IMG/VR virus record: IMGVR_UViG_3300031623_000043
Span: 1-25,277 of that record
From: a virus
Strand: one strand, 5' to 3'
Length of the DNA: 25,277 bases
Of the stretch, positions 9,638 to 23,785 are shown in pieces. The position numbers were made by a program, and so were the translations under genes. The first letter of the stretch is position 1; every line of letters begins with the position of its first letter. The notes under the pieces were generated by a model, which did no database searches, was not told the DNA's origin, and worked only from the letters and a program-made list of their open reading frames with translations.

Positions 9638-10276
9638 ATGCAATTACAACGTTTATGGTCAGGATTTACAAACGAACAATACAATTATATTACCAATATT
9701 ATTAAAAACAGTGACGCTAAAAGTGTATGCGAACTTGGCACGTTTGTTGGAACCACGGCAAAAAATATTTGGGAACATATAAAAGATTCTGATAAAAAAT
9801 TATACCTTGTAGACAATTATTTGTTTTTACAAGAAGATAAAAGACAAAAATTTTTTGATAGTGTAAAACATTCAATAGATAAAAATACTCAAAATATAAT
9901 TCCTATACTAAAAAGCAGTCATGAATATAGATGGACTCAACACGATTTTATTATATTTGGACACCACGATGACAATCATATGTTACCGGATCTAAACGCA
10001 TTAATGAATAGCGATGTAAACTATGCAATAATAGGTGACGGTACTCCGGAATGTTTCCAAAGAACAAAAGCAGTATATGAACTAATAGCAAATCTTACTG
10101 GCAAAGGATTACGTCCACAGTATTATCTTAACGGATTAATTGTATTAGGAAGGAAACAGCTAGAATGCACACTGCCAACTAAACAAGATTTTTTATTTGG
10201 ACATAACATAAAATATATGCCTAAACCAAAAGGCAATTACTTAAAGGCAATAGATGAACTTAAAAGAATATATTAG
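9638..10276 (+). CDS. class I SAM-dependent methyltransferase-like protein
   Basis: A 212-residue Rossmann-type protein. Motif I is SVCELGTFVGTT (E32, G34, G38), and the acidic end of the second strand is KLYLVDNY (D59), the usual SAM ribose contact. The N-terminal LWSGFTNEQYNYI helix and overall length resemble Methyltransf_24-type enzymes that act on small molecules or sugars. No target-recognition domain for DNA is seen, and no DPPY/NPPY motif, so a DNA adenine methyltransferase is unlikely. It heads an apparent operon with an oxygenase-like and a ligase-like gene, overlapping the next gene by 23 nt. Substrate unknown. Confidence 0.65.
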   Translation: MQLQRLWSGFTNEQYNYITNIIKNSDAKSVCELGTFVGTTAKNIWEHIKDSDKKLYLVDNYLFLQEDKRQKFFDSVKHSIDKNTQNIIPILKSSHEYRWTQHDFIIFGHHDDNHMLPDLNALMNSDVNYAIIGDGTPECFQRTKAVYELIANLTGKGLRPQYYLNGLIVLGRKQLECTLPTKQDFLFGHNIKYMPKPKGNYLKAIDELKRIY

Positions 10277-10805
10277 TTGGACTAAAACTATTAACGAGTA
10301 TAAAACTGCACCAACTGTTGCAAATGCCGATGCATGGGGTTTTAAAAAATTAAAAAAAGTAAATGTTCCAGAAATAAAAATAGAAAATGCTACTGAAGGC
10401 GATGAAGGATATTGGAGTGTACGTAATAACGAATTAAACAATTGGGCAAAAGAAATATGGTCTGATTTAGTATTTCTTGATACAAAAATACAAATACAAA
10501 AACCCGGACAAGTATGTAAACCACATTTAGATTTTTTAGGATATTATTTAGAAGATATATGTATGGCGCATCCGGGTTTATTAAAGTTAAAACACTCGTT
10601 AGAAACACCAGCAATAGATATATGGCGTATGTTTATTGCCGTAGAGGACCGGGTTTGGGGACAACGATTTGTAATTAATGACTGGGATTGGATATGGAAA
10701 GCAGGAGACTGTATTAGATTAAACAACTGGCGGGCATTACATTGGACAGAAAATACTAGCAAGAAGGATAGAATTATAATTAAAGTAACAGGAGTTAAAT
10801 TTTGA
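10254..10805 (+). CDS. 2-oxoglutarate/Fe(II) oxygenase-like protein
   Basis: A 183-residue protein with the metal facial triad arrangement of 2OG/Fe(II) dioxygenases: H91-x-D93 in CKPHLDFLG, distal H163 in RALHWTEN, and R173 in KKDRIIIKVTG as the likely 2OG-carboxylate contact. W-AGDCIRLNN upstream of H163 forms the expected strand. This is the double-stranded beta-helix layout of aspartyl/asparaginyl hydroxylase-like enzymes. It lies between methyltransferase and asparagine-synthetase-like genes, with a 23-nt overlap upstream and a 4-nt overlap downstream. Peptide, amino-acid or small-molecule hydroxylation is a reasonable guess; the substrate is not evident. Confidence 0.65.
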   Translation: MNLKEYISWTKTINEYKTAPTVANADAWGFKKLKKVNVPEIKIENATEGDEGYWSVRNNELNNWAKEIWSDLVFLDTKIQIQKPGQVCKPHLDFLGYYLEDICMAHPGLLKLKHSLETPAIDIWRMFIAVEDRVWGQRFVINDWDWIWKAGDCIRLNNWRALHWTENTSKKDRIIIKVTGVKF

Positions 10806-12382
10806 AATTTTTTATATCTAATAAAGAAAAATTAACTAACAAATACGGACAGTGGTATTGGTGGGCAGATAAAAAGTGTAATGTAACACAAAACAAAGAA
10901 CACCTTGTAATTTACTCTGGATATGTTATTGAAGAACCTATAGATGAAATTGTTTTTCGAGATCCCCATTTATTAGAAAATTCAAACGGTACATTTTGGG
11001 CAGTAATTTTAACAAAAACATCAGTAAAAGTTATAGTTGATTACTTCTGTCAATCTAAAATTTTTTATCGACAAACAGACAGAATTGAAATTACAAATGC
11101 AATATATTTGTTTCCGTTTAATTCAAAAGATATTGATATGCCGGAAGTAATGAATAGGCTTAATATACCAGAAAAAGAACGAAATTATAAAGTATTAACA
11201 ACGTTTGAACGTTGGGAAACATTTATTCTAGACTGGGCCGCATATACTGACTCGGGTCCTAATTTAGGAATGAGGCAATATTCTCCGTCCAAATGTAAAA
11301 CCATTTTTAAAAATACTTTTATATTAGAACCCGATCATTGTTTAGAAGTTGTTGATAACATACTTAATATTAAAAGAATTCATAACACACACAAGTCAAT
11401 CCTTGATGCATTAAGTCCAACAACACCAGCATTTAATACAAGTGCAGAAATTGAAGAATATATTCATTTTTGTATGGACAGTCATGCGTCAGTTATTAAA
11501 CAAAATTATAAAAATATTACAAGCAGTTTAAGTGAAGGCATTGATTCTGTTTTACAAGATCAATATTTTCCTGAATCTAAAAAAATTATGTATCACTTTG
11601 CTCCTTCAAATGGACCATTTGATTACAAGCAAAAAGCTAACAATAAAACAAAAAATAAAAATGTACAAGTTGACCATTTTCCTTTAGACAAAGATAGCAT
11701 AAGCAAAATTGCTGGTGAAGTTATGAACGACCCTAGTTGTTTTTATTGGGATACTCTTCCCTCACAATGGCAACTTGCAAACATGAAAAGTAAACCCGAT
11801 GTTTTATTATTTGGGCAAAACGGAGACAATATGTTTATGCACAAACCGTTTTTCTATTACGAATATATGTTTGCTAAACAGATTCCAAAAAAAATATCTA
11901 TACAACAAAAATTAGAAGAATTTAACAAAACACTTGACGATTTTAAGGATTGTTATTCATCTCGAGATAATTTGTGGAGCCAACCTGTAAAAACTTGGCA
12001 AGAAGCATTCCACGACATGACTAAAGAAGAATTAATAAAAGAATTAGAAACTGACCGCGAAGATGCATGGAAAGACGATTTTGCAAGAAAAAATGCACCG
12101 GGTTTATATAATAGAGAAATTTCACACGCAGGAGATACACTAGTTACGTCTTTATATTGTGATAAAAGAATATTTTATAAAGTAATGAGTATGCCCGAAA
12201 ACATTATGCTTGAAAGTATTAAAGAAGCACAAATACAAAAAAATATTTTAAAATCTAAATTTAACTACACATTTGAAACACCATATAAAGATCAAGCAGA
12301 ATTTAATGCAGTACATATAATTAAACCAATGTATATGAGCGGCATGAAACATTGTTTAAAAAATCATTTACCCGATGCGTAA
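10802..12382 (+). CDS. asparagine-synthetase-like ATP-dependent ligase (divergent)
   Basis: A 526-residue protein laid out like AsnB. The first ~110 residues resemble the glutaminase-fold N-domain (LLENSNGTFWAVIL..., DYFCQSKIFYRQ, EITNAIYLFP), but residue 2 is Lys, so the catalytic Cys2 of glutamine-using enzymes is absent. The synthetase half shows a PP-loop-like SLSEGIDS (around residue 240; SGGxDS in the family, one Gly replaced by Glu), GQNGDNMF (around 337) in place of the GEGADE-type motif, and a C-terminal LYCDKRIFYKVMSMPE like the PFLD-region helix. AsnB relatives lacking Cys2 include beta-lactam synthetases and lasso-peptide cyclases. Amide-bond formation on an unknown substrate is inferred. 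It overlaps the oxygenase gene by 4 nt. The altered PP-loop leaves activity uncertain. Confidence 0.6.
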   Translation: MKFFISNKEKLTNKYGQWYWWADKKCNVTQNKEHLVIYSGYVIEEPIDEIVFRDPHLLENSNGTFWAVILTKTSVKVIVDYFCQSKIFYRQTDRIEITNAIYLFPFNSKDIDMPEVMNRLNIPEKERNYKVLTTFERWETFILDWAAYTDSGPNLGMRQYSPSKCKTIFKNTFILEPDHCLEVVDNILNIKRIHNTHKSILDALSPTTPAFNTSAEIEEYIHFCMDSHASVIKQNYKNITSSLSEGIDSVLQDQYFPESKKIMYHFAPSNGPFDYKQKANNKTKNKNVQVDHFPLDKDSISKIAGEVMNDPSCFYWDTLPSQWQLANMKSKPDVLLFGQNGDNMFMHKPFFYYEYMFAKQIPKKISIQQKLEEFNKTLDDFKDCYSSRDNLWSQPVKTWQEAFHDMTKEELIKELETDREDAWKDDFARKNAPGLYNREISHAGDTLVTSLYCDKRIFYKVMSMPENIMLESIKEAQIQKNILKSKFNYTFETPYKDQAEFNAVHIIKPMYMSGMKHCLKNHLPDA

Positions 12383-12435
12383 ATTTTTATAATGCGTTTT
12401 TTATTTTTATACGCGAATGCGTAAATTTGCGTAAA
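12375..12435. repeat. short direct repeats and hairpin after the ligase gene
   Basis: ATGCGTAAATTT occurs at 12375-12386 (running out of the ligase stop) and again at 12417-12428, with a partial ATGCGT at 12392 and GCGTAAA at 12429. TACGC-GAAT-GCGTA (12410-12423) can form a hairpin. No proper T-run follows. The rest of the gap to 12540 has no gene; it contains a second copy of AACTGCATTTAA at 12458-12469. Confidence 0.5.
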
Positions 12436-12540
12436 ACAGAGTGCCCTGACCTTTTGAAACTGCATTTAAGTTAACATAACAAAAATCTAACATTACTGGT
12501 CATGAACAGATAATTAAAAGTAAATTATGGAGCAAAATGT

Positions 12541-12753
12541 ATGGGCATACATCACACATATAAAGCACAAGCCGGCGAAAGAGCCAACAAAAAACAAAAT
12601 AAACAGTACGAGAAAGAAAGACGTTCTCGCAATCGCAAGATCCTACGACAACAGCAAGAGCAAGGTAAGTTAAAAGACTCGTATGTTGTTCCAGACGGTG
12701 TTACACTAACACTGGATATGATAACAGATCCTAAGAGAAATGGCAAGATTTAG
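12541..12753 (+). CDS. small basic helical protein
   Basis: A 70-residue protein beginning MGIHHTYKAQAGERANKK, with a continuous charged helix (KKQNKQYEKERRSRNRKILRQQQEQGK) and a short C-terminal VPDGVTLTLDM segment. A GGAG lies 8-11 nt before the ATG. It overlaps the DUF1289 gene by 14 nt. No membrane span. It could be a nucleic-acid-binding or scaffold protein, or, being the small product nearest several tailoring genes, a substrate; neither is supported by a motif. Confidence 0.6.
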   Translation: MGIHHTYKAQAGERANKKQNKQYEKERRSRNRKILRQQQEQGKLKDSYVVPDGVTLTLDMITDPKRNGKI

Positions 12754-12928
12754 TATCAGCTCACATGAAATATATAGACTTCCATGTATTGGTGTATGTA
12801 GTATTGATGAAAACAGTGGCTTTTGTGTTGGATGTAGTCGAACAGAAGAAGAAGTATATAAGTGGGAAGATCCAAACACTACGGACGAATGGAAAAAGAA
12901 AAACGAAGAAGAATTAAAAACTAGATGA
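12740..12928 (+). CDS. DUF1289-family small cysteine-rich protein
   Basis: A 62-residue protein with PCIGVCSIDENSGFCVGCSRTEEEVYKW, matching the DUF1289 signature PCxxxC...GxCxGCxRTxxE. Four cysteines (C16, C20, C29, C32) suggest metal or Fe-S binding. The family is widespread in proteobacteria and its role is poorly defined. In this operon it lies directly before a radical SAM gene (4-nt overlap), so handling of iron-sulfur clusters is an attractive but unproved idea. A host-derived gene is likely. Confidence 0.8.
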   Translation: MARFSISSHEIYRLPCIGVCSIDENSGFCVGCSRTEEEVYKWEDPNTTDEWKKKNEEELKTR

Positions 12929-13962
12929 TTAATCAAAGATTATTTGAACATTATAACATCGACACAAAGAAAAATTTACAAATTAAAAATATATGTCCGC
13001 GACCATACGATACTGTTCTCATAGATAAAAATGGATCTTGTTATGCTTGTGAGTGTACATCATGGCTACCACAAAGCATAGGCAACTTACAATTAAAAAC
13101 ATTAGACGAAATTATTAATTCTAAAATGCAACAATACTTACAAAGTTCTGTTGCTGATGGAACGTATCGTTATTGTAATGAACATCAATGTTCTTACATA
13201 AAGTCTGATTCTGTATCGCATGGCCAGCCAGAACGCATACAGCATTTAAGACTTGCTATAGATGACAGTTGCAATTTGAGGTGCCCGAGCTGTCGTAAAG
13301 ATTTAATATTTCACAAAGAAGGTTCTGCATTTAAGTTAGGAATTAAACTTGCAGATAAAATAAATGATTGGTTGTACACATATACGCATCCAATCCAAGT
13401 GCATATAGGATCTGATGGAGATCCTTTTGCTTCACACGTATATAGACACTTCATGGAACAAACTCCGGAGCGAAATAATATCAAGTATTCCATATTAACT
13501 AATGGACTTATGTTTAAAGAGTTTCATACCAAAGTACCATACATTATAAACAACTTGCGAGACCTAGGCGTAAGCATTGATGGTGCAAGTAAAGAAACGT
13601 ATGAGAAATTAAGACTAGGTGGTAATTGGGATAAAATTAGAAAGAACTTAGACTGCATAGCCGAATTAAAAGAGAAACATAATTTTAGATTTATAATACA
13701 CTTTGTTGTGCAAAAAGACAACTATCACGAAATGGAAAACATTATTGACCTAGGTGAGCAATATGGTGCTGATAGGGTTTGGCTAAACAAAATAGAAGAC
13801 TGGGGTACCATGGACGATTTTAAAACACAAAACATATTTGAAACACCAGATTACAAACATCAACTAGACAATGTTGTACAACGTATACAAAAACGCAATG
13901 ATAGATTTATTGAGTGCCCTACCCTAATAAGTGAAGCGGTTCGTTATAAAAACAAAAGCTAA
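12925..13962 (+). CDS. radical SAM protein with N-terminal SPASM/twitch-like region
   Basis: A 345-residue protein in which the cysteine-rich auxiliary region comes first: C24, C39, C42, C44, then C84 and C89, embedded in TVLIDKNGSCYAC...SIGNL...LDEIINSKMQQYLQ, which is the usual SPASM wording. The radical SAM motif follows as C116-x3-C120-x2-C123 (CNLRCPSC), with GSDGDP and a SIDGASKETYEKLR strand. In common SPASM enzymes the order is core then SPASM, so this is reversed. Peptide or protein modification is the usual role of SPASM enzymes. It overlaps the DUF1289 gene by 4 nt and converges with the next gene over 44 nt. Confidence 0.85.
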   Translation: MINQRLFEHYNIDTKKNLQIKNICPRPYDTVLIDKNGSCYACECTSWLPQSIGNLQLKTLDEIINSKMQQYLQSSVADGTYRYCNEHQCSYIKSDSVSHGQPERIQHLRLAIDDSCNLRCPSCRKDLIFHKEGSAFKLGIKLADKINDWLYTYTHPIQVHIGSDGDPFASHVYRHFMEQTPERNNIKYSILTNGLMFKEFHTKVPYIINNLRDLGVSIDGASKETYEKLRLGGNWDKIRKNLDCIAELKEKHNFRFIIHFVVQKDNYHEMENIIDLGEQYGADRVWLNKIEDWGTMDDFKTQNIFETPDYKHQLDNVVQRIQKRNDRFIECPTLISEAVRYKNKS

Positions 13963-14398
13963 ACTGAATTCTAGGATATGTAGCATTAGGTCCCATTTCA
14001 ACTGTATGTGGTATATTTGAACGTAACACAATAGGTCTTGTAGATTCGGTTCTATCGATTTCTTTTTTATTCTTATCAAACCAAATGTTATATGTGTCTT
14101 GTGTGTTTAACACAGGAAAATTAATCTTTGCAATAACCGGTGGCTCGTCTGTATGCATACTGGTTTTATTTTGTTTTGAATAGATTGTCCAACTTATATC
14201 ACGTACTCTTAAATTCATTGATGAGAACCATTCCATAAGATCTGGATTGGTATTAATTACTTTTATTACATCTTGTCTGGTTAATGCATTCCAAAAGGAA
14301 TTAGCTGTTTCTATTAAATCGTTTGCCTCTAAAAAATTATACAAACCTTCTGCAATTTTTTCTTGGTTTTCACAAGTCAGAATAAAATATGATTTCAT
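13919..14398 (-). CDS. compact 2OG/Fe(II) oxygenase-like protein, minus strand
   Basis: A 159-residue protein with H82-x-D84 (MHTDEPP), a following strand IAKINFPVLNTQDTYNIWF, distal H131 (SNIPHTVEM) and R143 (YPRIQFSFCF), the spacing expected of a small double-stranded beta-helix dioxygenase. It is not closely similar by eye to the + strand oxygenase at 10254. Its 3' end overlaps the radical SAM gene by 44 nt on the other strand, and its start sits 6 nt from a palindromic promoter box shared with the dehydrogenase gene. Substrate unknown. Confidence 0.6.
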   Translation of the reverse strand: MKSYFILTCENQEKIAEGLYNFLEANDLIETANSFWNALTRQDVIKVINTNPDLMEWFSSMNLRVRDISWTIYSKQNKTSMHTDEPPVIAKINFPVLNTQDTYNIWFDKNKKEIDRTESTRPIVLRSNIPHTVEMGPNATYPRIQFSFCFYNEPLHLLG

Positions 14399-14415: not shown

Positions 14416-14432
14416 GTTTGAAACAGAGCAAA

Positions 14433-14945
14433 ATGAAAATAGCTATAACAGGTCATAAACACGGAATTGGTAAAGCATTCGCGGAGCAATTATCTGCACG
14501 TGGACACGAGATAATTGGTATTTCTAGAAGTGACGGAGAAAACATTCGTAGGACAGTTCACACAGCATCCATAATTGAACCTTGTGAGCTTTTTATCAAT
14601 AATGCAATAAGTTTTTATGCTCAGACCGAGTTATTATTTGAAGTTTGGCACCGATGGAAACTTTACAAAGATGTTCACTATATCTGGAATATATCAACAA
14701 AACTGTGTACTAACTCATACGATATAGAAATTAATGGACTTACTATGCGTGAGTCAATGCAGTATCGCAATCAAAAAATGAGTTTGGAACTATCTCATGA
14801 ACAACTAAATGCACAGGCTAGTAATATCAAAATGTCTTTGATCCGTCCTGGCAGTGTTAACACACAATCGTTTAGTGATCCTAAGAGTATTTCTGCTGAG
14901 GCATACGTCAAGCAAGTATTGGAAACTCAAGGAACACCATTATAA
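14433..14945 (+). CDS. short-chain dehydrogenase/reductase-like protein
   Basis: A 170-residue protein from the ATG at 14433; a TTG five codons earlier lies too close to the promoter box. The NAD(P)-binding motif is ITGHKHGIGKAFAEQL, like TGxxxGIG of SDR enzymes, followed by GHEIIGISRS. The catalytic pair appears as YRNQK (Y-x3-K), with ISTKLC supplying the serine region and a LIRPGSVNT loop. It is shorter than typical SDRs (about 250), lacking part of the central region. Its stop overlaps the next start (TAATG), so it is coupled to the sulfotransferase. Possibly sugar or peptide redox tailoring. Confidence 0.7.
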   Translation: MKIAITGHKHGIGKAFAEQLSARGHEIIGISRSDGENIRRTVHTASIIEPCELFINNAISFYAQTELLFEVWHRWKLYKDVHYIWNISTKLCTNSYDIEINGLTMRESMQYRNQKMSLELSHEQLNAQASNIKMSLIRPGSVNTQSFSDPKSISAEAYVKQVLETQGTPL

Positions 14946-15481
14946 TGTTATCAAATTGGAATACTTTACTAAACAGAGATTGTAAAGTTATAAAGATTAA
15001 AGGCTTATACGTTTATCCAATATTTAAAAATGGCTCATCTAAACTAATGAAACAAAAAGACAAGTTGATTATTAATAACGACATTAAAAAATTAAAAAAT
15101 ATTGTTGTTATTTTAAGAGATCCAACTGAACGATTTATATCAGGCGTAAACAAAGTAGCTTATATGATGAAAATAACTGTTAATGAAGCAATGGATTATA
15201 TCAGTACTAACAAATTAATTGATTTGCATTTTGCTCCGCAATTTATTTGGCTACTACATTTAAAAAAATATTTTGATGGTGACATACAATTAACACCAAT
15301 GTACACTTTAGACAATTTATTATCTAAAAGCAAAGAAGGGAAAGAGTATGATGACATTACTGTTGATCCTATAAAAAAATTTACTGAGATTGATGAGCAA
15401 TTAATAAAAAAATATATGCACAAGAGACCAACGTTAGAAACTGTTATAAAGGATTTAATAAATGTTTTGCCCAAGAATTAA
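14945..15481 (+). CDS. sulfotransferase-like protein
   Basis: A 178-residue protein with the two PAPS-contact motifs of sulfotransferase family 2: YPIFKNGSSKL (residues 24-34; like PKxGST) for the 5'-phosphosulfate loop, and VVILRDPTERFISG (54-67; RDPxxRxxSG) for the 3'-phosphate site. A DLHFAPQ stretch matches the H-x-x-PQ often seen in these enzymes. It would transfer sulfate from PAPS to a carbohydrate or peptide/protein acceptor. It is coupled to the dehydrogenase gene upstream and overlaps the radical SAM gene by 20 nt. No membrane anchor, so cytoplasmic. Confidence 0.72.
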   Translation: MLSNWNTLLNRDCKVIKIKGLYVYPIFKNGSSKLMKQKDKLIINNDIKKLKNIVVILRDPTERFISGVNKVAYMMKITVNEAMDYISTNKLIDLHFAPQFIWLLHLKKYFDGDIQLTPMYTLDNLLSKSKEGKEYDDITVDPIKKFTEIDEQLIKKYMHKRPTLETVIKDLINVLPKN

Positions 15482-16544
15482 TCACTTTGCTAGAATAAAT
15501 CAAAACGGTACTATTGGTAAGTGTGGGCATATGAATACTACTGTTGGGTTTAAAACATTTTATGAATTAGAAAAAAGCGATTGGCTACGTAACATTCAAC
15601 GCACAATGGACAAAGACAAGTGGCCAGAAGAGTGTGTGCGTTGTCAACGTACTGAAAAAGTTACTGGAGAAAGCATACGAACTAAAAGTATTGCGAGACA
15701 CAAGATGCTACACCCAGTAAAAGAAAACTATCTTATTATCGGTGGAGTATTAGACAACGTATGTAATAGTGCTTGTCAAACTTGTTATGATGGATTGAGT
15801 ACAAAAATTGGTAGCCTTGCAAGTAAAAAATACATCCGTGTAAACAACTATAAACAGTTTTGGAAATTTCCGCAGGACAGAATAATTGAGGTAGATGTAA
15901 ATGGTGGTGAGCCAACTGCAAGTAAAAACTATAAAAGGATATTAAACAATCTCCCGGTGAATACTAAAATAGTTAGAATGAATACTAATGGTTCAAGAAT
16001 GATTAATGAAATAATAACACTACTCAAAAAGAAAATTATGGTTATTGTTACAATAAGTTTTGATGGTGTCGGTACCGTTCATGATTATGTACGTTGGCCA
16101 ATTAAATGGGAAAAATTTACAAAAACTGTACAAGAATATAAAAAACTACAAAAGCAATATAAACTTCTTAAACTAAATTTTTGGACTACTGTTAGTTGCT
16201 TAAACATAGAAGACTTTCCAAATATTATAAAATATGCATCTGATAATAATATTGATCACGATTGGGCATTTTTAAATATGCCCGACGTATTAAATGTAAA
16301 ATATAAAAATCCTTTTACTGTTAATGCAAAAATAGAATTTTTATCAAGTAATAATAAAATACTACACACTATGGCTTCTCAAATAGCAACCGATTCGGAT
16401 AATACTGATGGTGGAACTATTGCAAACAATCCTAATTTATCGTTGTTTATTAAAAAACAAGACTATCTTAGAAAAATTAATATTAACGATTATTTTAGTT
16501 TTGATGAGAACTTGTTCAGTAATAGTTCTGCAAAACCTAAATGA
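15462..16544 (+). CDS. radical SAM protein with N-terminal twitch-like region
   Basis: A 360-residue protein. The N-terminus (MFCPRINHFARINQNGTIGKC) carries C3 and C21, then ECVRCQRTE adds a CxxC near residue 60, forming a truncated SPASM (twitch) layout ahead of the core. The radical SAM motif is C101-x3-C105-x2-C108 (CNSACQTC), followed by VNGGEP, TNGS and ISFDGVGTVHDYVRWP. The FDG..YVRWP segment also occurs in the two paralogues at 21301 and 22541. It closes the SDR-sulfotransferase operon and converges with the SGNH gene over 55 nt. Substrate unknown; peptide or protein modification is the usual role for such domains. Confidence 0.83.
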   Translation: MFCPRINHFARINQNGTIGKCGHMNTTVGFKTFYELEKSDWLRNIQRTMDKDKWPEECVRCQRTEKVTGESIRTKSIARHKMLHPVKENYLIIGGVLDNVCNSACQTCYDGLSTKIGSLASKKYIRVNNYKQFWKFPQDRIIEVDVNGGEPTASKNYKRILNNLPVNTKIVRMNTNGSRMINEIITLLKKKIMVIVTISFDGVGTVHDYVRWPIKWEKFTKTVQEYKKLQKQYKLLKLNFWTTVSCLNIEDFPNIIKYASDNNIDHDWAFLNMPDVLNVKYKNPFTVNAKIEFLSSNNKILHTMASQIATDSDNTDGGTIANNPNLSLFIKKQDYLRKININDYFSFDENLFSNSSAKPK

Positions 16545-17203
16545 TGTTTATCTCCATAATGTTTTCCGTCTTGTGCTACATTTGGATTAGTTATTCTTTC
16601 TCTACGTGATTCTTTTCCAAGGTATTGATCCCATGGTGGCCAACAACTGTTAAGTGTAGCATAATCCATTACATTTATATTTGCTGGTAACGTTGATATT
16701 TCTTCTGCAAAACAATGAAACACTTTTGCTTGATTGTATTCGGCAAGTTTTTGTACTAAAAAAACATTCTTTAAAAAGTTTTGCTGATCGGTATCTTCTG
16801 TTTCAAATCTATTATATTTGTCTCGTCCAAATAAATCTATAGGAATTTTATCTAAACGTTCTCTTCTACTGCTACTTGGCCAACAACAAATAATAAATTT
16901 AGGAAATAAAACTTTTTCTGCACCATATAAAATACGTACCATTCTATCTCCAGAACACCCAGGCACAGCAAGATTCCAATACCTTAATTGTTTTGTATTG
17001 TGTTTTGATAAATGAGCAACCCAGTGTGTATCTTCTGTATGCCCAACACCAAATGTGTGTGAACATCCTAATACAATAACATTCTTTTTTCCTTCTGGTA
17101 AAGGACTAAACTCTGGACAACGATATCCTAACGAATTTACTTTGATACCTTCGGCATTATTGTTTACAGGAATTCCTTTATCTGAGAAGTGTCCTAGTTC
17201 CAT
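16490..17203 (-). CDS. SGNH/GDSL hydrolase-like protein
   Basis: A 237-residue protein with block I VIVLGCSHTFGVG (nucleophile S48), block II NLAVPGCSGDRMVRIL (Gly of the oxyanion hole), and a C-terminal GDKHHLGFAELL in which D218 and H221 form the DxxH of block V. SGNH enzymes are esterases or acetyl-esterases/transferases acting on sugars and lipids; phage examples trim host surface glycans. No signal peptide is visible, so it is either intracellular or virion-borne. Its start shares one base with the end of the upstream minus-strand gene. Convergent overlap of 55 nt with the radical SAM gene. Confidence 0.7.
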   Translation of the reverse strand: MELGHFSDKGIPVNNNAEGIKVNSLGYRCPEFSPLPEGKKNVIVLGCSHTFGVGHTEDTHWVAHLSKHNTKQLRYWNLAVPGCSGDRMVRILYGAEKVLFPKFIICCWPSSSRRERLDKIPIDLFGRDKYNRFETEDTDQQNFLKNVFLVQKLAEYNQAKVFHCFAEEISTLPANINVMDYATLNSCWPPWDQYLGKESRRERITNPNVAQDGKHYGDKHHLGFAELLLNKFSSKLK

Positions 17204-17505: not shown

Positions 17506-17557
17506 ACAATTAATTATTGTACGTTGTGGAGAGTACCTGGGGGAATCGAACTCGTTT

Positions 17558-17634
17558 TGGCGGGAGTGAAGGGACTCGAACCCTCGGCCTACCGCGTGAC
17601 AGGCGGTCGCTCTAACCAACTGAGCTACACCCCC
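17558..17634 (-). tRNA. tRNA-Asp (GTC)
   Basis: A full cloverleaf on the minus strand: acceptor GGGGGTG/CACTCCC with one G-T pair, D-arm AGCTCAGTTGGTTAGAGC, anticodon stem ACCGC/GCGGT with loop CTGTCAC (anticodon GTC), T-loop GTTCGAGTC, discriminator G and encoded CCA (17558-17560). It is the last of three tRNAs on this strand. It probably supplements host Asp decoding for phage codons. Confidence 0.95.
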
Positions 17635-17646
17635 AGATTTTATAAT

Positions 17647-18051
17647 TTATTGTGCCTGTGTGTTAACACAAACATCTAATAATGTTTTAGTATCGCTTAA
17701 CTCTTGTTGCACATCAGCAAGTGTTGAATCCGCATCAGCAAGTTGTGATTCTAATTCTCCTCTTAAAGAATCAGAGTCGTTCAGCTTAATGTTAACCGAT
17801 TCCCATCCTGCTATTGCATCTTTGGCTGACACAGTTAATCCTGCTATCGCATCATCGCGAACTGCTATCTCGTTTGACATCGCTTCTAACGTACTGTCGG
17901 TTGTTGAGATTTCAGCATTAGCAACTACTAGGTCGGCTTCTAAGTCATTGATTGTGCTTGAGTTATTTGATACTATGATCAATAAAGCAACAACAAGAAT
18001 AAAATACATCCATGCCGCTGGTTTATCAATAAGTTTTTTGATTGTTTCCAT
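17647..18051 (-). CDS. membrane-anchored coiled-coil protein
   Basis: The frame is open to 18141, but that part translates tRNA-Ala; the ATG at 18051 (METIKKLIDKPAAW) is the credible start, giving 134 residues. A single membrane span (about residues 14-31, MYFILVVALLIIVS) is followed by a long acidic coiled coil (SSTINDLEADLVVANAEIS...LADVQQELSDTKTLL) to the end, with N-in topology likely. This form resembles inner-membrane spanin or Rz-like lysis proteins, but T4-like marine phages also carry other such anchors. It sits between tRNA-Ala and tRNA-Asp, and an inverted repeat lies just upstream of its start. Confidence 0.65.
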   Translation of the reverse strand: METIKKLIDKPAAWMYFILVVALLIIVSNNSSTINDLEADLVVANAEISTTDSTLEAMSNEIAVRDDAIAGLTVSAKDAIAGWESVNIKLNDSDSLRGELESQLADADSTLADVQQELSDTKTLLDVCVNTQAQ

Positions 18052-18052
18052 A

Positions 18053-18078
18053 ATACTATTATAGTACAACAATAGTAT
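18053..18078. promoter_or_regulatory. inverted repeat at the start of the coiled-coil gene
   Basis: ATACTATT (18053-18060) and AATAGTAT (18071-18078) are perfect inverted arms around a 10-nt spacer, ending 1 nt from the start codon of the minus-strand gene. As RNA it would form a leader hairpin; as DNA it could be an operator. A TATAAT string lies within it on the minus strand. Confidence 0.4.
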
Positions 18079-18097
18079 ATCAATGTCAATCCAATAT

Positions 18098-18173
18098 TGG
18101 TGGAGGATACAGGGATCGAACCTGCTACCTCCTGAATGCAAATCAGGCGCTCTCCCAGATGAGCTAATCCCCC
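18098..18173 (-). tRNA. tRNA-Ala (TGC)
   Basis: A minus-strand cloverleaf: acceptor GGGGGAT/ATCCTCC, D-arm AGCTCATCTGGGAGAGC, anticodon stem CCTGA/TCAGG with loop TTTGCAT (anticodon TGC), T-loop GTTCGATCC, discriminator A and encoded CCA (18098-18100). Confidence 0.95.
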
Positions 18174-18204
18174 AACCTTATTAAGTATTACCAAACATAC
18201 CAAA

Positions 18205-18251
18205 AACACCAAAAGAACCATGTTTCTTCTTCTAGAAGCATGGTTGGTGTT
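18205..18251. other. long imperfect hairpin between tRNA-Thr and tRNA-Ala
   Basis: Nested arms: AACACC/GGTGTT (18205-18210, 18246-18251), ACCATG/CATGGT (18217-18222, 18239-18244) and CTTCT/AGAAG (18226-18230, 18234-18238) around a 3-nt loop. It lies wholly between two tRNA genes transcribed leftward, so it may be a processing signal or a small structured RNA. No T-run of terminator type on either strand. Confidence 0.5.
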
Positions 18252-18260
18252 TAACGGTTT

Positions 18261-18336
18261 TGGTGCCCTCACCCCGACTCGAACAGGGAACCTACTGATT
18301 ACAAATCAGTTGCTCTACCAATTGAGCTATGAGGGC
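18261..18336 (-). tRNA. tRNA-Thr (TGT)
   Basis: A minus-strand cloverleaf: acceptor GCCCTCA/TGAGGGC, D-arm AGCTCAATTGGTAGAGC, anticodon stem ACTGA/TCAGT with loop TTTGTAA (anticodon TGT), T-loop GTTCGAGTC, discriminator A and encoded CCA (18261-18263). It is the first of the leftward tRNA set. The 170 nt before it (18337-18506) hold no gene I can support. Confidence 0.95.
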
Positions 18337-18506
18337 CTTAACTTACAAATAGTACACGATAAACTGCCTTATGTCTACCGTTTAAACGTGCATAGAGCGG
18401 CGTACACGCATGGTAAAGGGCGTGAAGGAGCAACTGTATATAGACATATATTACCATGTAAAAGTTGCATATCTGACCTGCTTAATTCACATAAGTAAAC
18501 TTACCC

Positions 18507-18692
18507 ATGAGAGATAAAAAACATTTAGTTAACTATTCAGAAAAGCTGAAGGAACAAAAATGGAAAACTATGCTGTTTAGATCACACCGTAGACCCGTTG
18601 AAGCAGGAGCAAATGGAACCTTATCTTACACAATCAAAAGTGGTATAAACAAAGACAAAATAGCAGATACCAAAATCATTAAAAGCAAATAA
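18507..18692 (+). CDS. small basic hypothetical protein
   Basis: A 61-residue product, MRDKKHLVNYSEKLKEQKWKT..., very basic, with HRRPVEAGANGTLSYTIKSG in the middle and a lysine-rich end. No membrane span, cysteine or known motif. No clear SD. It is supported by a full-length open frame of plausible composition in an otherwise unassigned stretch that leads into two small membrane-protein genes. Confidence 0.5.
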   Translation: MRDKKHLVNYSEKLKEQKWKTMLFRSHRRPVEAGANGTLSYTIKSGINKDKIADTKIIKSK

Positions 18693-18710
18693 AAGTCCTA
18701 CACCGTTAGT

Positions 18711-18718
18711 TGTAAATA
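18711..18718 (+). promoter_or_regulatory. candidate late promoter box, leaderless spacing
   Basis: TGTAAATA ends 7 nt before the ATG at 18726, which has no SD. Matches the spacing seen at several other unit starts. Confidence 0.4.
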
Positions 18719-18725
18719 ATACACT

Positions 18726-18896
18726 ATGAAAAAGATTATAAAAAAATTCATGAAAAATATTTGGGATTGGAAGATTGCATTAATTAGAAAATATCCAGTG
18801 TGGTGTGCATATGCGGCATGGCTAGAAGGAATTATAGTTGGCATCTTAATATATCATTACTTTATGATGGATGTATTGAGTTGTTGTAATGGATAA
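18726..18896 (+). CDS. small single-span membrane protein
   Basis: A 56-residue product starting MKKIIKKFMKNIWDWK, a basic amphipathic N-terminus, followed by a hydrophobic segment AYAAWLEGIIVGILIYHYFMM and a short tail ending SCCNG. Topology is probably N-in. Its stop overlaps the start of the lipoprotein gene by 8 nt. A small membrane protein coupled to a lipoprotein is the usual layout of two-component lysis genes, but this one has no coiled coil, so it does not look like a standard inner spanin. Function unknown. Confidence 0.65.
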   Translation: MKKIIKKFMKNIWDWKIALIRKYPVWCAYAAWLEGIIVGILIYHYFMMDVLSCCNG

Positions 18897-19116
18897 AAAA
18901 TTCGAAAGAAATATAATATGGACTCTCGCCATAATACTAATTCTACTTGGTTTGTTTGGTTGTGCCAAACCTAAAATTGATTCTGGTAAAAAAGAAACGG
19001 TTACTGTACTTGATAGTGTTGGCAATATGGAATCAATTGCTGAGGCACTTGGTTGTATATTTGGTGCAACAGACGACGTCTGTAAAAAACAACCAACTGA
19101 ATTACATACAAAATAA
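18889..19116 (+). CDS. small lipoprotein
   Basis: A 75-residue product with a type II signal peptide: charged start MDKKFERN, hydrophobic core IIWTLAIILILLGL and lipobox LFGC (Cys26). The mature part is about 50 residues with two more cysteines (GCIFGATDDVCKK), possibly a disulfide. It overlaps the membrane-protein gene before it by 8 nt. An outer-membrane spanin-like or superinfection-related role is possible; no family is recognised. Confidence 0.7.
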   Translation: MDKKFERNIIWTLAIILILLGLFGCAKPKIDSGKKETVTVLDSVGNMESIAEALGCIFGATDDVCKKQPTELHTK

Positions 19117-19117
19117 T

Positions 19118-19438
19118 TTAAATTACTTTTTGAAATCTCTCGTTTGAAAAATTTAAACCTTCAAGTTCTTCGGGTTTGCCTAATGGATATGTTGGTTCTA
19201 TTCTAAACTCTTCTTTTGTTTCGTCGTTCTTACAACCGGCAACAAGCCAATCCCATTTAAAGTTTCCGTCTACAACAAATTCCCATAATACATCATAGGT
19301 ACCGTTGTCTCTTGTTTGTAGTAGTAATTCTTTTTTACACCCTTCCATTGTGTCAAATGTTTGTTGCATTTGAAATGTTCTTTGTGTTTCTATTGGGCTT
19401 TGGGTTATTAGGTATGCTAGTATTAACAGTTTATACAT
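19118..19438 (-). CDS. small exported hypothetical protein
   Basis: A 106-residue product with a short hydrophobic N-terminus (MYKLLILAYLITQSPIE) that may be a signal peptide. The remainder has C34 and C69, with GTYDVLWEFVVDGNFKWDWLVAGCKND. It converges with the lipoprotein gene with a 1-nt gap and lies just downstream of a second lipoprotein gene on its own strand. No known domain. Confidence 0.6.
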   Translation of the reverse strand: MYKLLILAYLITQSPIETQRTFQMQQTFDTMEGCKKELLLQTRDNGTYDVLWEFVVDGNFKWDWLVAGCKNDETKEEFRIEPTYPLGKPEELEGLNFSNERFQKVI

Positions 19439-19454
19439 AAATTACTTTAATTTA

Positions 19455-19949
19455 TTACTGGACAACCATGTAGTAACTACGTTTTATACTTGCTTGGTGT
19501 TGGTTAATCTGTACTGTTGGTATTGGTGTATTGAAAGTTTTTTCTGGATGTCTTAGTTTAACTCTAAAATTTGGTGCATACTTGTCTAACAAAGTATAAT
19601 TTGCTGTTGATACCGATGAATTAATCCCGTGCCAGGTATTCTTTAAAGATTTATTTGCAATTTCAAAATTAGTAACTGATAATTCTTTATTTTTAAAGTG
19701 TTTTTCAAGACGTTTTTTTGTATATTTGTTTTCAACTGCCGCGTACAAATGTTGACTTACTGTTTTGCCAGTTGATTTATGTGACGCTAGATTAACTAAA
19801 GCATTCACCGCCTGGGTTTCGTATTTTCCTGTCGCGGCTCCTATTGCTCCATTAATTGAAAGACTGCCTTCAAGGGTACTTACTAATGGAAGACCTGCAC
19901 ATCCATTTAAAACCGTTAATAGTAATATTGCACCTAATAATCGTTTCAT
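19455..19949 (-). CDS. lipoprotein, minus strand
   Basis: From the ATG at 19949 the product is 164 residues: MKRLLGAILLLTVLNGCAG gives a type II signal peptide with lipobox VLNGC (Cys17). The mature protein starts with a Gly/Ala-rich stretch (SLSINGAIGAATGKYETQAVNALVNLA) that could insert into a membrane. It continues with a basic helical region (ENKYTKKRLEKHFKNKE). A TTG two codons earlier (19955) lies 8 nt from an AGGAG at 19965-19969 and is the alternative start; however a TTTAAATA box lies between that SD and the ATG. Function unknown; likely acts at the outer membrane. Confidence 0.7.
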   Translation of the reverse strand: MKRLLGAILLLTVLNGCAGLPLVSTLEGSLSINGAIGAATGKYETQAVNALVNLASHKSTGKTVSQHLYAAVENKYTKKRLEKHFKNKELSVTNFEIANKSLKNTWHGINSSVSTANYTLLDKYAPNFRVKLRHPEKTFNTPIPTVQINQHQASIKRSYYMVVQ

Positions 19950-19956
19950 TATCAAT

Positions 19957-19964
19957 TATTTAAA
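19957..19964 (-). promoter_or_regulatory. candidate late promoter box, leaderless spacing
   Basis: On the minus strand TTTAAATA ends 7 nt before the ATG at 19949. If used as a T4-type late promoter, the upstream AGGAG would fall outside the message and the ATG would be leaderless. Confidence 0.4.
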
Positions 19965-19992
19965 CTCCTGTTGTAGTACTTATAGTAGTCTA

Positions 19993-20187
19993 TTACTCTG
20001 CTATTTGAGAGCACTGTTCTTTTGTTGCTTTTAATCCTGATTCAGAATCAAATAACCAAACATAAGAATAAACTACTTGTTCGTCTTCAACCATACATTT
20101 CTTGCCATAAGCAAGTGATGGGTTCTTTACAGAACAAGCCGATGTTAAAAATACTATTGCAAATAGTGTTGCTATCAGTTTTTTCAT
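19993..20187 (-). CDS. small lipoprotein, minus strand
   Basis: From the ATG at 20187 the product is 64 residues: MKKLIATLFAIVFLTSACS is a clean type II signal with lipobox LTSAC (Cys18). The mature part is about 47 residues with two further cysteines (KKCMVEDEQ, KEQCSQIAE). The frame is open to 20223, but starts at 20193 and 20202 would only add residues before the charged MKK. A GATAAATA box ends 5 nt before the ATG. Role unknown; phage lipoproteins of this size are often superinfection-exclusion or lysis factors. Confidence 0.7.
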   Translation of the reverse strand: MKKLIATLFAIVFLTSACSVKNPSLAYGKKCMVEDEQVVYSYVWLFDSESGLKATKEQCSQIAE

Positions 20188-20192
20188 ATTCA

Positions 20193-20200: not shown

Positions 20201-20270
20201 ATAATATATGTATATAATAACATATATCACAATATAGTCAACCAATGAGCTGGCTCCAATAATTAACAAT

Positions 20271-21317
20271 ATGAAGCCTATAGAGCATTCTCCTTACTGG
20301 AAAACCTTACAACCTATCATTGAGAGTGGAGCAATTCAAGCCGCTATTGATGGTGTTTACAAATATCCTTATAGAATAAACTTATATCCTGGCACTAGTT
20401 GTATGTTCAAATGCTTGTATTGTGGACGAAACTATGATGCTGTTATAAAGAAAAGTAAAAATGTATACAAACAAATTATAGAACAAGACGATGGCAAAGA
20501 TAAAAATAGATTTGGTATTACTGGAGGATTGGAACCTCTTACTAGTCCTTACATCAATGATATATGTAAAGATTTAATTGATAAAGGATATAAATCAAGA
20601 ATGGTTACTAATGGATTTTTATTAAATGATAAAATAATATCAAAAAATCCTTACATAAATTCCTTAGATCATTTAAGAATATCTTTGTATGGATTAGATA
20701 ATGAAGAATATGTAGCAACAACTAGACATAACCTAGGATGGCAAGTTGTAAAAGAAAATTTAACCAATTACAATAAACGAGATGATAAGACTAAATTATT
20801 TTTAAACTATGTTTTATTACCAAAACATTTTGAAAATTTACATAGCATCATAAATTATATACAAGATATAGGTGGTGCAAGTAACTTATCGTTAAGAGAG
20901 GACTATACGTTCCAATATAAGATTAACGAACGAAACAAAGTTCAAGACACACTGTTAGCATTTGACGAACGTATTAAAAAAATGAACATGACTATTGATT
21001 ATGGTTACGCACTGCAAGACGCCATGCATGGTGAAGACACACATCTAATGCGAGTAACTTATAACGAATTGCGTCCAAAACAATCTCCACAAGTAAAAAT
21101 TTGTGTAGTTCCTAACGGTAACATTTATTCATATATGTCGGCTGGGTTTGTTGAAAGACCGGGAGCATTACGTCATGCATTAGGTAATGTTAATAATAGT
21201 TCTATTGAACAAGAATTGAAGAAGCAAGTTGAGGTTGTACCTAGAGAAGACGATATGCAATATTTAGATGCATACAATCATTTAATTTTAAAATATATTC
21301 ATGAAAAAAATTCCTAA
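20271..21317 (+). CDS. radical SAM protein without N-terminal auxiliary region
   Basis: A 348-residue protein with C44-x3-C48-x2-C51 in LYPGTSCMFKCLYCGRNYDAV, then ITGGLEPLTSP in the SAM-contact position and MVTNGFLL. The NLYPGT..CMF.C.(Y/F)CGRNY wording differs from the other five radical SAM proteins here. To my reading it is nearer sugar-modifying radical SAM enzymes such as the DesII type, an impression only. A C-terminal VKICVVPNGNIYSYMSAG resembles part of a SPASM strand but carries a single Cys. It heads a three-gene operon, overlapping the next gene by 17 nt. Role unknown. Confidence 0.82.
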   Translation: MKPIEHSPYWKTLQPIIESGAIQAAIDGVYKYPYRINLYPGTSCMFKCLYCGRNYDAVIKKSKNVYKQIIEQDDGKDKNRFGITGGLEPLTSPYINDICKDLIDKGYKSRMVTNGFLLNDKIISKNPYINSLDHLRISLYGLDNEEYVATTRHNLGWQVVKENLTNYNKRDDKTKLFLNYVLLPKHFENLHSIINYIQDIGGASNLSLREDYTFQYKINERNKVQDTLLAFDERIKKMNMTIDYGYALQDAMHGEDTHLMRVTYNELRPKQSPQVKICVVPNGNIYSYMSAGFVERPGALRHALGNVNNSSIEQELKKQVEVVPREDDMQYLDAYNHLILKYIHEKNS

Positions 21318-22539
21318 AACATATTGTCGATATCCTTTTAAACAAGCCATTGTAGATAAATCTGGCTTAATGAAATTTTGTTATTATAATTTTTTTCCAT
21401 ATGGAACTAACGCAAAACACGACTATACGTTTCCCGACGATAAAAAACATATTAACGATGTTGACGACATTAATGATTGGTTTCATGGTTCATATATGAA
21501 CCAAGTGCGTAAATCAATGCTAGAAGGTAAACCTTTAAAGGAATGCATTGGTTGTTACCAATGCGAGGAACGTGGTAAACAATCATTTAGACAAGAAGCT
21601 AATTACAATTATTTTAAAAAAAATAAAAACAAACCACTAGACCATATTAACTTCGAAGCTGTACACCTAAAATTTGGCAACAAATGTAATTTAAAATGTA
21701 AAATGTGTCACCCATGTACTAGTAGTGAATTACAAAAGGAATACCAAGAACTGGGTTGGAAAAACAACGATCCGATAGTAAAAAGTTCAACTAAAGATAA
21801 AGTTGACTATAACTGGCCAACGAAGGAAAAGAATATTGAAAAATTAAAAGCCATGGCCAAACATCACAAACGTTTTCACTTCTCCGGGGGCGAACCACTA
21901 TTACATAAAGGTTTGTTTAATTGGATGAAACATTGTGTTGACAACAACTATGCAAGAAATATTGATTTTGATATTGTAACAAACGGAACAGTTATACCTC
22001 CTCAATTTATTGACCTGGCTGATCAGTTTAACTCTGTTTCGGTATCACTAGGTATCGATGGCTTGAACGATACATTTAACTATATTAGGTATCCCGGAAA
22101 CTTTAATATTATCGAACAGAACACAAATTTTTATCATAACTGGTTAAAGAATAAACCTAACTCTAGATTTACTATTATTTTTTGTTTACAAGTTTTTAAT
22201 TTGCACCACCTTAGTAATTTTATAGAAAAATATACTCCTCTTTGTATTAATTCCGAACCCGGGATAATTTATTTAGAAGATCCATCTTTTATGTCTTATA
22301 ACTTGTTAGATACTAAAGATATTGTACAACAAATAAAGAAATTAATAATGCTTAAACAATCATCAAACAACGAAACAATGAATGCTGTTATACAAGATTG
22401 TTTAATTAACCTTAAGAACTATAATACAAAACAAAATAAAAATGAGTGGAAAGAATTAAAACAATTTGTTGCAACACAAGACAACCACCGAAATATTAAT
22501 ATTGCAAATTATATTCCTGAACTAGCTCATTATTTTTAA
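21301..22539 (+). CDS. twitch-type radical SAM protein, tandem copy 1
   Basis: A 412-residue protein with the cysteine-rich region first: C9 (KTYCRYPF), C27, then C82, C85 and C88 (ECIGCYQC). The core motif follows as C129-x3-C133-x2-C136 (CNLKCKMC), then FSGGEPLLH, VTNGT and LGIDGLNDTFNYIRYP. It is clearly paralogous to the next gene, sharing YCRxPF, VRKSMLEGK-L-EC, FGNKCNLKCKMC and SSEL-KE---LGW; the core motif is identical over 30 nt in both. Only 1 nt separates the two genes. Such proteins are usually linked to peptide or protein modification; no partner peptide is evident. Confidence 0.87.
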   Translation: MKKIPKTYCRYPFKQAIVDKSGLMKFCYYNFFPYGTNAKHDYTFPDDKKHINDVDDINDWFHGSYMNQVRKSMLEGKPLKECIGCYQCEERGKQSFRQEANYNYFKKNKNKPLDHINFEAVHLKFGNKCNLKCKMCHPCTSSELQKEYQELGWKNNDPIVKSSTKDKVDYNWPTKEKNIEKLKAMAKHHKRFHFSGGEPLLHKGLFNWMKHCVDNNYARNIDFDIVTNGTVIPPQFIDLADQFNSVSVSLGIDGLNDTFNYIRYPGNFNIIEQNTNFYHNWLKNKPNSRFTIIFCLQVFNLHHLSNFIEKYTPLCINSEPGIIYLEDPSFMSYNLLDTKDIVQQIKKLIMLKQSSNNETMNAVIQDCLINLKNYNTKQNKNEWKELKQFVATQDNHRNINIANYIPELAHYF

Positions 22540-22540
22540 T

Positions 22541-23785
22541 ATGAAAGAAGTTTCAAAATCTTATTGTAGAGTACCATTTGATAGTATTACTGTTACGCCA
22601 ACTGGACGTATGCAAATGTGTTGTGAAGCACAATGGACTGCTTTACTTTCTACAGAAAAAACTTCTATTAAAGATATAGATAGTATCGACAACTGGTTTA
22701 ACAGTGATTATCTTAACAACGTAAGAAAATCTATGTTAGAAGGTAAGCTATTACCTGAATGTGTAACCTGTTATAAAAATGAAAAGCTATATGATCGTTC
22801 TGTTCGAACCGTTATTAATGAAGAATATTTTGCTAAGAATAATAATACAACAGAATACAGCATTAAAAAAGTAGATTTTAAACTTGGAAACAAATGTAAT
22901 TTAAAATGTAAAATGTGTTTTCCTTATGCATCTAGTGAACTTTGGAAAGAATGGAAAGCACTTGGATGGAACAGTAAAGAAAAAGATCCAAACAAAGATA
23001 CATCATGGAAATATTATGATGGATATTTTAAAGAAGACTATGCATGGCCAAAGAATAAAACCAACATGGACAAAATAAAAGAGGTAGCAGTAAAGAGTAA
23101 ACTTATTCACGTTACCGGAGGTGAGCCAACATTAAATCCAGAGTTCTTTGATTTATTACGACATTGTATTGATACCGGCGTTGCAAAAAATATTATACTC
23201 GACGTCACTACTAATGCAACAAAAATTCATCCAAAATTTTTTGACATGGTACGACAATTCAAAAAACTTGATCTTATTATTAGTATGGATGGTATTGATA
23301 AAACTTATGAGTATGTAAGATATCCAGCAGTATATAATACTGTCTACAAAAATATTTTAAAGTACAATGCGTTTGTAAAAACATTAAACAAAAATTCAAC
23401 ATTAAGATTTAATTTTGTATTACAAATGTGGAACATACACTCAACTATCGATGTTATAAAAACACTTACTCCGTTAGCTGTAAATGAAACACAAGTACCT
23501 GTAATGATCGAAGTTCTAAACGATCCACGTTTTATGCATTGGGACATTCTTCCAGAATGGTATATTAAAAAAATTGTAGCAAATATTCACAAAGAGAAAC
23601 AAGCAAACCATCCAGAATTAATTAGATATGGAATATTTGCTTTTGCTGAAAAACTTAAAGCATATAAAGAAAGAGACATAACAGGACTTAAAAAACAACT
23701 ATTAGAGTTCACTACTATACAAGATACTCATAGAGGTATAAAATTAAAGGATTATATACCAGATCTGGTGGAGTTTTTTGGATAA
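22541..23785 (+). CDS. twitch-type radical SAM protein, tandem copy 2
   Basis: A 414-residue paralogue of the preceding gene. N-terminal cysteines are C9, C27 and C28 (QMCCEAQ), plus ECVTCYKNE; compared with copy 1 the third Cys of that cluster is missing. The core is C119-x3-C123-x2-C126, then VTGGEPTLN, TTNAT and SMDGIDKTYEYVRYP. The end, TIQDTHRGIKLKDYIPDLVEFFG, matches the TQDNHRNINIANYIPELAHYF end of copy 1, so the whole length is duplicated. The altered cysteine sets imply the two may carry different clusters or act on different sites. Last gene of the operon. Confidence 0.87.
   Translation: MKEVSKSYCRVPFDSITVTPTGRMQMCCEAQWTALLSTEKTSIKDIDSIDNWFNSDYLNNVRKSMLEGKLLPECVTCYKNEKLYDRSVRTVINEEYFAKNNNTTEYSIKKVDFKLGNKCNLKCKMCFPYASSELWKEWKALGWNSKEKDPNKDTSWKYYDGYFKEDYAWPKNKTNMDKIKEVAVKSKLIHVTGGEPTLNPEFFDLLRHCIDTGVAKNIILDVTTNATKIHPKFFDMVRQFKKLDLIISMDGIDKTYEYVRYPAVYNTVYKNILKYNAFVKTLNKNSTLRFNFVLQMWNIHSTIDVIKTLTPLAVNETQVPVMIEVLNDPRFMHWDILPEWYIKKIVANIHKEKQANHPELIRYGIFAFAEKLKAYKERDITGLKKQLLEFTTIQDTHRGIKLKDYIPDLVEFFG

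Follow-up and report, generated by a model that had tools for sequence, protein, structure and literature searches.

The 25,277-nucleotide virus fragment IMGVR_UViG_3300031623_000043 of IMG/VR (the window, that is, the whole stretch analysed) carries at positions 9638–23785 an island of genes arranged around radical S-adenosylmethionine (rSAM) enzymes, which is probably part of a phage-borne sugar-tailoring system. This assessment rests on homology, motifs, the gene row and selection, all read from the sequence, and we infer the substrate, the reaction, the acceptor and the benefit. The central gene, 20271 (genes are named here by their start positions), is related to that of DesII, the TDP-4-amino-4,6-dideoxy-D-glucose ammonia-lyase of the desosamine pathway, and because DesII relatives sit in a complete-looking aminosugar pathway elsewhere, remodelling of sugars on the infected cell or the virus appears likelier than peptide making.

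The radical SAM gene set and its DesII relative

The window derives from a large aquatic T4-type phage with a UvsW-like helicase, a primase and a gp41-type helicase, the last of which shares 47–50% identity with its nearest relatives from the Pseudomonas phage PA5oct and the Agrobacterium phage Atu_ph07. Six open reading frames (ORFs), starting at 6233, 12925, 15462, 20271, 21301 and 22541, encode rSAM proteins, and all but 6233 lie inside the island. The original prediction had listed these genes with intact CX3CX2C motifs, and ORFs, motifs and the Pfam search all agree with it: the motif reads CTLECPLC in 6233, CNLRCPSC in 12925, CNSACQTC in 15462, CMFKCLYC in 20271 and CNLKCKMC in both 21301 and 22541. 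All six exceed the Pfam Radical_SAM cut-off in a genome search, with 15462 borderline in a separate Pfam scan (29.4 bits, cut-off 29.5), and six matches within 25 kb are not chance. The genes 20271, 21301 and 22541 form a row on the plus strand, with a 17 bp overlap followed by a 1 bp gap and with intact active-site motifs, and apparently share one transcription unit.

Judged by its sequence, the 20271 protein belongs to the DesII superfamily. It matches the sequence of the DesII crystal structure (PDB 8HZV) over residues 8–340 with an E-value of 8e-50 and about 33% identity across the aligned core, and keeps 65 of the 129 columns that are near-invariant in actinomycete DesII. The SAM contacts in DesII are made by C141/145/148, G187–E190, R238/S240/Y242 and D323/Y324, and D456 is required for activity, the D456A variant being inactive and E408A still active (PMC11434129). 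Compared with these data, 20271 keeps the CX3CX2C motif, all of the SAM-contact residues and D456; the rSAM core with R238, S240, Y242 and D323, the GGLEP motif and the C-terminal hairpin domain are likewise common to both proteins. In contrast to DesII, 20271 is devoid of the N-terminal helical domain, has a serine in place of E408 and has no aminotransferase partner that could be found. Among cellular genomes DesII was found in actinomycetes only (30 of 30 loci; 84,980 species scanned with two search patterns). In a tree no phage homologue groups within the actinomycete clade and the window lineage stands furthest apart, the branching order being tentative because the branches are long. A Brachyspira protein was considered as a true DesII relative and rejected, as its similarity is at the level of the rSAM core and its C-terminal cysteines are of the SPASM type.

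The two following genes, 21301 and 22541, encode proteins with a four-cysteine N-terminal twitch domain preceding the rSAM core and belong to the N_Twi_rSAM subfamily NF033640 (260 and 277 bits), with a cut-off of 170 that 15462 (139 bits) and 12925 (49.5 bits) do not reach. Residues C9, C27, C74 and C77, the rSAM cysteines C119, C123 and C126 and the GGE motif are invariant in 71 aligned viral N-twitch sequences, and at least three N-terminal cysteines are present in all 170 non-redundant homologues. For the N-terminal domain alone, the sole match in the whole PDB is the twitch domain of the 2-deoxy-scyllo-inosamine dehydrogenase BtrN, with all four cysteines aligned. The BtrN domain, which is C-terminal rather than N-terminal, likewise uses four cysteines, which hold a fully ligated auxiliary cluster thought to accept the second electron in aminocyclitol dehydrogenation (PMC9012708, PMC6231123), and the likeness suggests, without proof, that the N-twitch proteins perform oxidation chemistry.

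DesII cassettes in other phages

A blastp comparison of the island genes with viral N-twitch loci uncovered a full-length DesII homologue (457 amino acids, 34%) on each of two contigs, in both cases between two aminotransferases of the DegT/DnrJ/EryC1/StrS family. One of the contigs, G006, is a 111 kb contig of a T4-like phage with major head protein, portal, baseplate and DNA polymerase genes, where a short-chain dehydrogenase/reductase (SDR), a DegT gene, the DesII homologue and a second DegT gene follow in this order, tightly packed on one strand, with five rSAM genes, N-twitch members among them, a few kilobases away. The SDR is heptose-epimerase/GalE/RmlB-like, under every specific cut-off, and the DesII homologue scores 328 bits against the DesII equivalog model TIGR04426, below the cut-off of 450. 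In the desosamine route the DesI, DesII and DesV steps act from the 4-keto sugar on, and the order of the G006 genes would match the logic of the route from this point.

When the viral scan started from 20271 as a single sequence or was kept narrow, all of the distant phage homologues escaped it; they were revealed by a better alignment that the blastp match made possible. Of the 19 loci in the viral profile scan, 14 are further contigs, besides G006, G007 and the window lineage; with G006 and G007 counted, 16 viral contigs outside that lineage have a DesII homologue. A sugar-type DegT aminotransferase gene is present in all 15 contigs scanned for it, either adjoining DesII or within about 4 kb, and an SDR is often nearby as well. 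N-twitch rSAM genes were found in 14 of 14 scanned contigs, a bare count rather than a tested enrichment against the large-phage background, and in 12 of the 14 the matches are over the cut-off, with 5 to 12 per contig. A T4-type major head protein is encoded on four DesII contigs, the others being shorter fragments or without a match. Apart from small changes at L189 or Y324, the SAM motifs are conserved throughout the phage homologues examined, and D456 is conserved without exception. Most of the other phage homologues have 77–109 residues before the core, as opposed to seven in 20271, and E408 is kept by all except the window lineage and one of two copies on the contig L193 (1326 and 4549), where one has the glutamate and the other a glycine.

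Other sugar-related genes are among the neighbours of the N-twitch genes. The 76 other viral N-twitch loci typically hold three to six rSAM genes per 20 kb, and while most neighbours have no Pfam match, those identified include further rSAM proteins, DegT, carbamoyltransferase, NeuB, and CMP-sugar and UDP-sugar enzymes. A carbamoyltransferase with both Pfam domains over the cut-off (L182, 12357–13850) is separated by about 2 kb from a paired DesII and DegT gene in a phage. Amidinotransferase-like genes, recognized by eye, are located beside N-twitch or DesII genes at L045 7549–8550 (G004), G004 11733–12755 and L184 16356–17414, the last without a Pfam match.

Open-access papers, with few subscription journals covered, yielded no report that brings phage and desosamine together with DegT or rSAM in this sense. 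The rSAM arrays of marine phages are already known, and phage DesII cassettes have, as far as the open-access literature shows, not been described before. A broader picture is possible, and we advance it tentatively, in which a deoxyaminosugar system so far known from actinomycete antibiotics is mobile among large T4-like phages of aquatic habitats. Unusual sugars would be built and diversified by a radical deaminase of DesII type together with permuted-twitch rSAM arrays, and would recoat the virion or the infected host; the window lineage would then retain a stripped DesII whose changed chemistry is directed at a host-supplied nucleotide sugar.

Proposed chemistry, conservation and competing explanations

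In the mechanism that we propose, a 5′-deoxyadenosyl radical generated by 20271 would abstract hydrogen from C3′ of a 4-amino (or 4-hydroxy) 6-deoxyhexose linked to a nucleotide, after which ammonia would be eliminated or the carbon oxidized to give a 3-keto sugar. The 21301 and 22541 proteins may subject the same sugars, or linked ones, to additional radical oxidation or rearrangement, with their four-cysteine auxiliary clusters serving as acceptors of the second electron, as has been proposed for BtrN. The product would be transferred to a host surface polysaccharide or a virion protein by glycosyltransferases from other parts of the genome, and the altered surface sugar may change binding by other phages.

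Genes that could serve such a coat are seen in the sister phage, where GT61 and Sulfotransfer_2 matches over the cut-off, a GT8-like gene and FkbM methyltransferases lie in a region whose end is about 2 kb short of uvsW, with a true AsnB gene likewise upstream of uvsW; the set fits a surface glycan. A B12-binding-type rSAM gene is also present in the sister phage (L037, 14932–16449), and a similar one may exist in G006 at 82888. For pelagimyophages, O-chain modification against co-infection has been proposed and rSAM cassettes are described in the host-recognition region (PMC7029224).

Several observations weigh against the sugar-tailoring proposal. The TIGR04426 score of 20271 is 222 bits, below the curated cut-off of 450, and the protein is therefore not filed as DesII. 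The six-helix N-terminal domain of DesII is missing, with seven residues preceding the core, and the E408 base is replaced by serine, or by alanine in the sister phage, though the E408A variant of DesII is active (PMC11434129). The BtrN match of the N-twitch domain is weak (E = 1e-3) and tells of the fold rather than the substrate. An AlphaFold model of 22541 (pLDDT 91) matches the peptide maturases SkfB and SuiB as much as BlsE or DesII, and BtrN is not among the fold matches listed. Finally, the 121 kb sister contig, itself a fragment, contains no DegT or PF16363 type genes; no aminotransferase, dehydratase or glycosyltransferase was identified among the profile matches of the window, likewise a fragment; and no RmlA-type NTP_transferase was found on the six contigs searched. 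Several of the partner genes could also be placed in no family. The window lineage could use a host sugar, carry aminotransferases elsewhere or have an altered reaction.

Two other explanations draw on the fold matches. One is that the rSAM proteins are maturases that act on a small phage peptide, by cross-linking or epimerization, or on a protein of the virion or the host, akin to the SPASM/twitch enzymes of ribosomally synthesized and post-translationally modified peptides (RiPPs). SPASM domains are indeed present in 6233 and 12925, the model resembles SkfB, SuiB and CteB, weak NCBIfam matches to peptide maturases occur, and the small ORFs 12541 and 12740, possible precursor genes, adjoin 12925. 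However, between the island rSAM genes no unannotated small ORF is conserved, those that are conserved lying either downstream of 22541 or in the tRNA/lipoprotein region; among the 148 viral ORFs scanned, the top 25 neighbour families of N-twitch genes include sugar enzymes and none that is RiPP-specific; and 20271 is of DesII type. Since the fold matches are mostly to the rSAM core, the search cannot tell peptide from sugar enzymes. We regard the maturase explanation as doubtful. The other explanation, that some of the rSAM proteins are viperin-like nucleotide chemists serving in phage competition or counter-defence, is highly improbable: viperin heads the VIA fold-match list for 22541, but the matches are limited to the common rSAM core and the prokaryotic viperin model NF038283 gives 30–46 bits (best 46) against a cut-off of 180.

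Related contigs, all of them fragments, show which parts of the island persist. G001 (121.8 kb), G002 and G003, near-identical to one another in the compared genes, contain the entire island in the same gene order, with proteins typically 60–95% identical to those of the window. Pairwise dN/dS ratios (nonsynonymous to synonymous substitution rates) of 0.10–0.25 for the six rSAM genes indicate that they are maintained by purifying selection, and the catalytic-site loss that would have spoken against the original prediction is not seen. The more distant G005 keeps relatives of 6233, which is also kept in G001–G003, of 12925 (49%) and of 22541, with different cargo in between and without the methyltransferase, AsnB, SDR and sulfotransferase candidates, and in G004 a 22541 relative (65%) comes after a DegT aminotransferase and one further gene. 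As G004 and G005 retain rSAM relatives amid changed cargo, the rSAM genes are the persistent part and their partners the variable one.

The variability bears on whether there is a pathway at all, the alternative being a hypervariable stretch of unrelated accessory genes, each useful alone. Besides the absence of most partners from G005 with the rSAM genes retained, the sister phages diverge strongly in one oxygenase (13919, 26% identity) and in the DctP gene (40%). Synonymous divergence from G001 is 0.12 in 10802 and 0.14 in 22541, far below the 0.4–0.6 of most neighbours, which suggests that these two genes were recently exchanged between phage lineages and speaks for single-gene exchange, and three tRNA genes (Asp, Ala and Thr; 17558–18336, minus strand), missing from the first list of the island genes, divide the island in two. 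Yet the tight 20271-21301-22541 row is kept across species, and N-twitch genes accompany DesII in each of the 14 scanned viral contigs, a count given without the background rate in large phages; we consider the absence of any pathway unlikely.

A DNA-directed role has also to be weighed, given that rSAM gene 6233 is embedded between the primase and helicase genes and that DNA glycosylation is frequent in T4-like phages. The system would in that case protect the phage from restriction by hypermodifying the bases of its DNA with an aminated group or an unusual sugar. The window, to which the search was confined, showed neither a base hydroxymethylase nor a DNA glucosyltransferase, and this role seems very unlikely.

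Overall, the original prediction of a tailoring activity around rSAM enzymes is supported, with intact catalytic sites, low dN/dS and gene order kept in the sister species. Of its three candidate substrates, peptide, protein or surface sugar, the evidence has narrowed the choice towards sugar, given the superfamily of 20271, phage DesII beside DegT and the shared N-twitch family, and disfavours peptide. Its proposal that the interleaved genes all form one pathway is not supported, with most partners absent from G005 and one oxygenase and DctP diverging between sisters, and co-occurrence in related phages extends to the rSAM genes but not to most partners.

Partner genes, comparable systems and significance

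The assignments of the partner genes in the original prediction fared unevenly. The DUF1289 protein is confirmed, and the HxD...H...R motifs of the two oxygenases are present in 10254 and 13919, with only the former reaching a TauD match, below the cut-off. The SDR retains the Rossmann start of adh_short, which is all that the match covers, at a score short of the cut-off, and the SGNH hydrolase 16490 retains its motifs and has no Pfam match; three of the four top PDB matches of its family profile are GDSL/TesA esterases, at E-values of 0.3–0.6. The sulfotransferase was not upheld, with a score below the cut-off and no PDB relative for a two-sequence profile, nor was the methyltransferase, for which, as for the oxygenase candidates, PDB searches with two-sequence profiles returned nothing credible. 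The AsnB-like ligase 10802 was rejected: no match was obtained for it in Pfam, NCBIfam, PHROG or the PDB, a profile comparison with a real phage AsnB showed no similarity, and its AlphaFold model, made from two near-identical sequences, is unusable (pLDDT 31). The DctP-family gene follows gp41 in the window phage and its sisters and is also found at L047 9636–10613 (G005), with no transporter partner seen. Adjacent TctC-like and TctA-like genes, by eye a tripartite tricarboxylate transporter pair, are present at G004 17536–20033 (L045/L046).

Table 1 Radical SAM genes of the window and partner genes of the island.
Feature	Position	Strand	Basis and remarks
rSAM with C-terminal SPASM, between primase gp61 and helicase gp41	6233..7141	+	PF04055, PF13186 over cut-off
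DctP-family solute-binding protein, signal peptide not evident	8641..9558	+	PF03480 115 bits; absent from the original prediction
Possible class I methyltransferase	9638..10276	+	Motif ELGTFVGT only, no profile match; 60% in sister phage
Possible 2-oxoglutarate-Fe(II) oxygenase	10254..10805	+	Sub-cut-off TauD match; HLD and H...R motif
526-amino-acid protein, AsnB resemblance not confirmed	10802..12382	+	No profile match; 95% in sister phage
DUF1289 Cys-rich small protein	12740..12928	+	PF06945 51 bits; 4 bp overlap with rSAM 12925
rSAM with N-terminal SPASM-like domain, GSDGDP replacing GGEP	12925..13962	+	PF04055, PF13186 (residues 24–89) over cut-off
Possible oxygenase	13919..14398	-	HxD...H...R motif; 26% identity, same place in G001
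Short SDR-like Rossmann protein	14418..14945	+	adh_short 22.8 bits, below cut-off; 88% in sister phage
Possible sulfotransferase	14945..15481	+	Sulfotransfer_2 15.5 bits, below cut-off 22
rSAM with four N-terminal Cys, divergent N-twitch type	15462..16544	+	NF033640 139 bits, below cut-off 170; Cys positions
Possible SGNH/GDSL hydrolase	16490..17203	-	GCSHT...DxxH motif; weak GDSL/TesA matches
DesII-superfamily rSAM protein, 348 amino acids, without DesII N-terminal domain	20271..21317	+	PDB 8HZV/8HZY, TIGR04426, motifs
N-terminal-twitch rSAM (N_Twi_rSAM)	21301..22539	+	NF033640 260 bits, cut-off 170; 17 bp overlap with 20271
N-terminal-twitch rSAM, second copy	22541..23785	+	NF033640 277 bits, cut-off 170; 1 bp after 21301

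Arrays of rSAM genes are known from other settings. Marine T4-like phages carry multiple rSAM genes in accessory regions, with lipopolysaccharide genes in the same phage groups, and the genome TARA_ERS488813_N000010 has 12 of them (PMC5332604, PMC7029224); in contrast to the present case, the accessible text of these papers assigns no sugar chemistry to the rSAM genes and does not describe DesII. The O-antigen region of the Brachyspira hyodysenteriae plasmid pBHWA1 has seven rSAM genes among rfb, epimerase and glycosyltransferase genes, although most of the proteins have C-terminal SPASM-type cysteines and resemble those of the window at the level of the rSAM core only. The 255 kb Vibrio phages K566 and K567 (OZ196521, OZ196593) have three annotated rSAM genes close together with PagP nearby, but at 23% identity and with no DesII match; the K566 trio at 161548–165950 (L199) is a possible laboratory model.

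While phage surface-glycan genes are known, the rSAM arrays of marine phages have been counted earlier and left without a function, and the DesII homologue links such an array to one specific and testable kind of chemistry, the radical deamination or oxidation of nucleotide sugars. The association with DesII also gives strong context to the N-twitch subfamily, the function of which is unknown, and the natural variants in E408 and the N-terminal domain are useful for DesII enzymology. A step of antibiotic-sugar biosynthesis, which was here otherwise found only in actinomycetes, thereby extends to phages.

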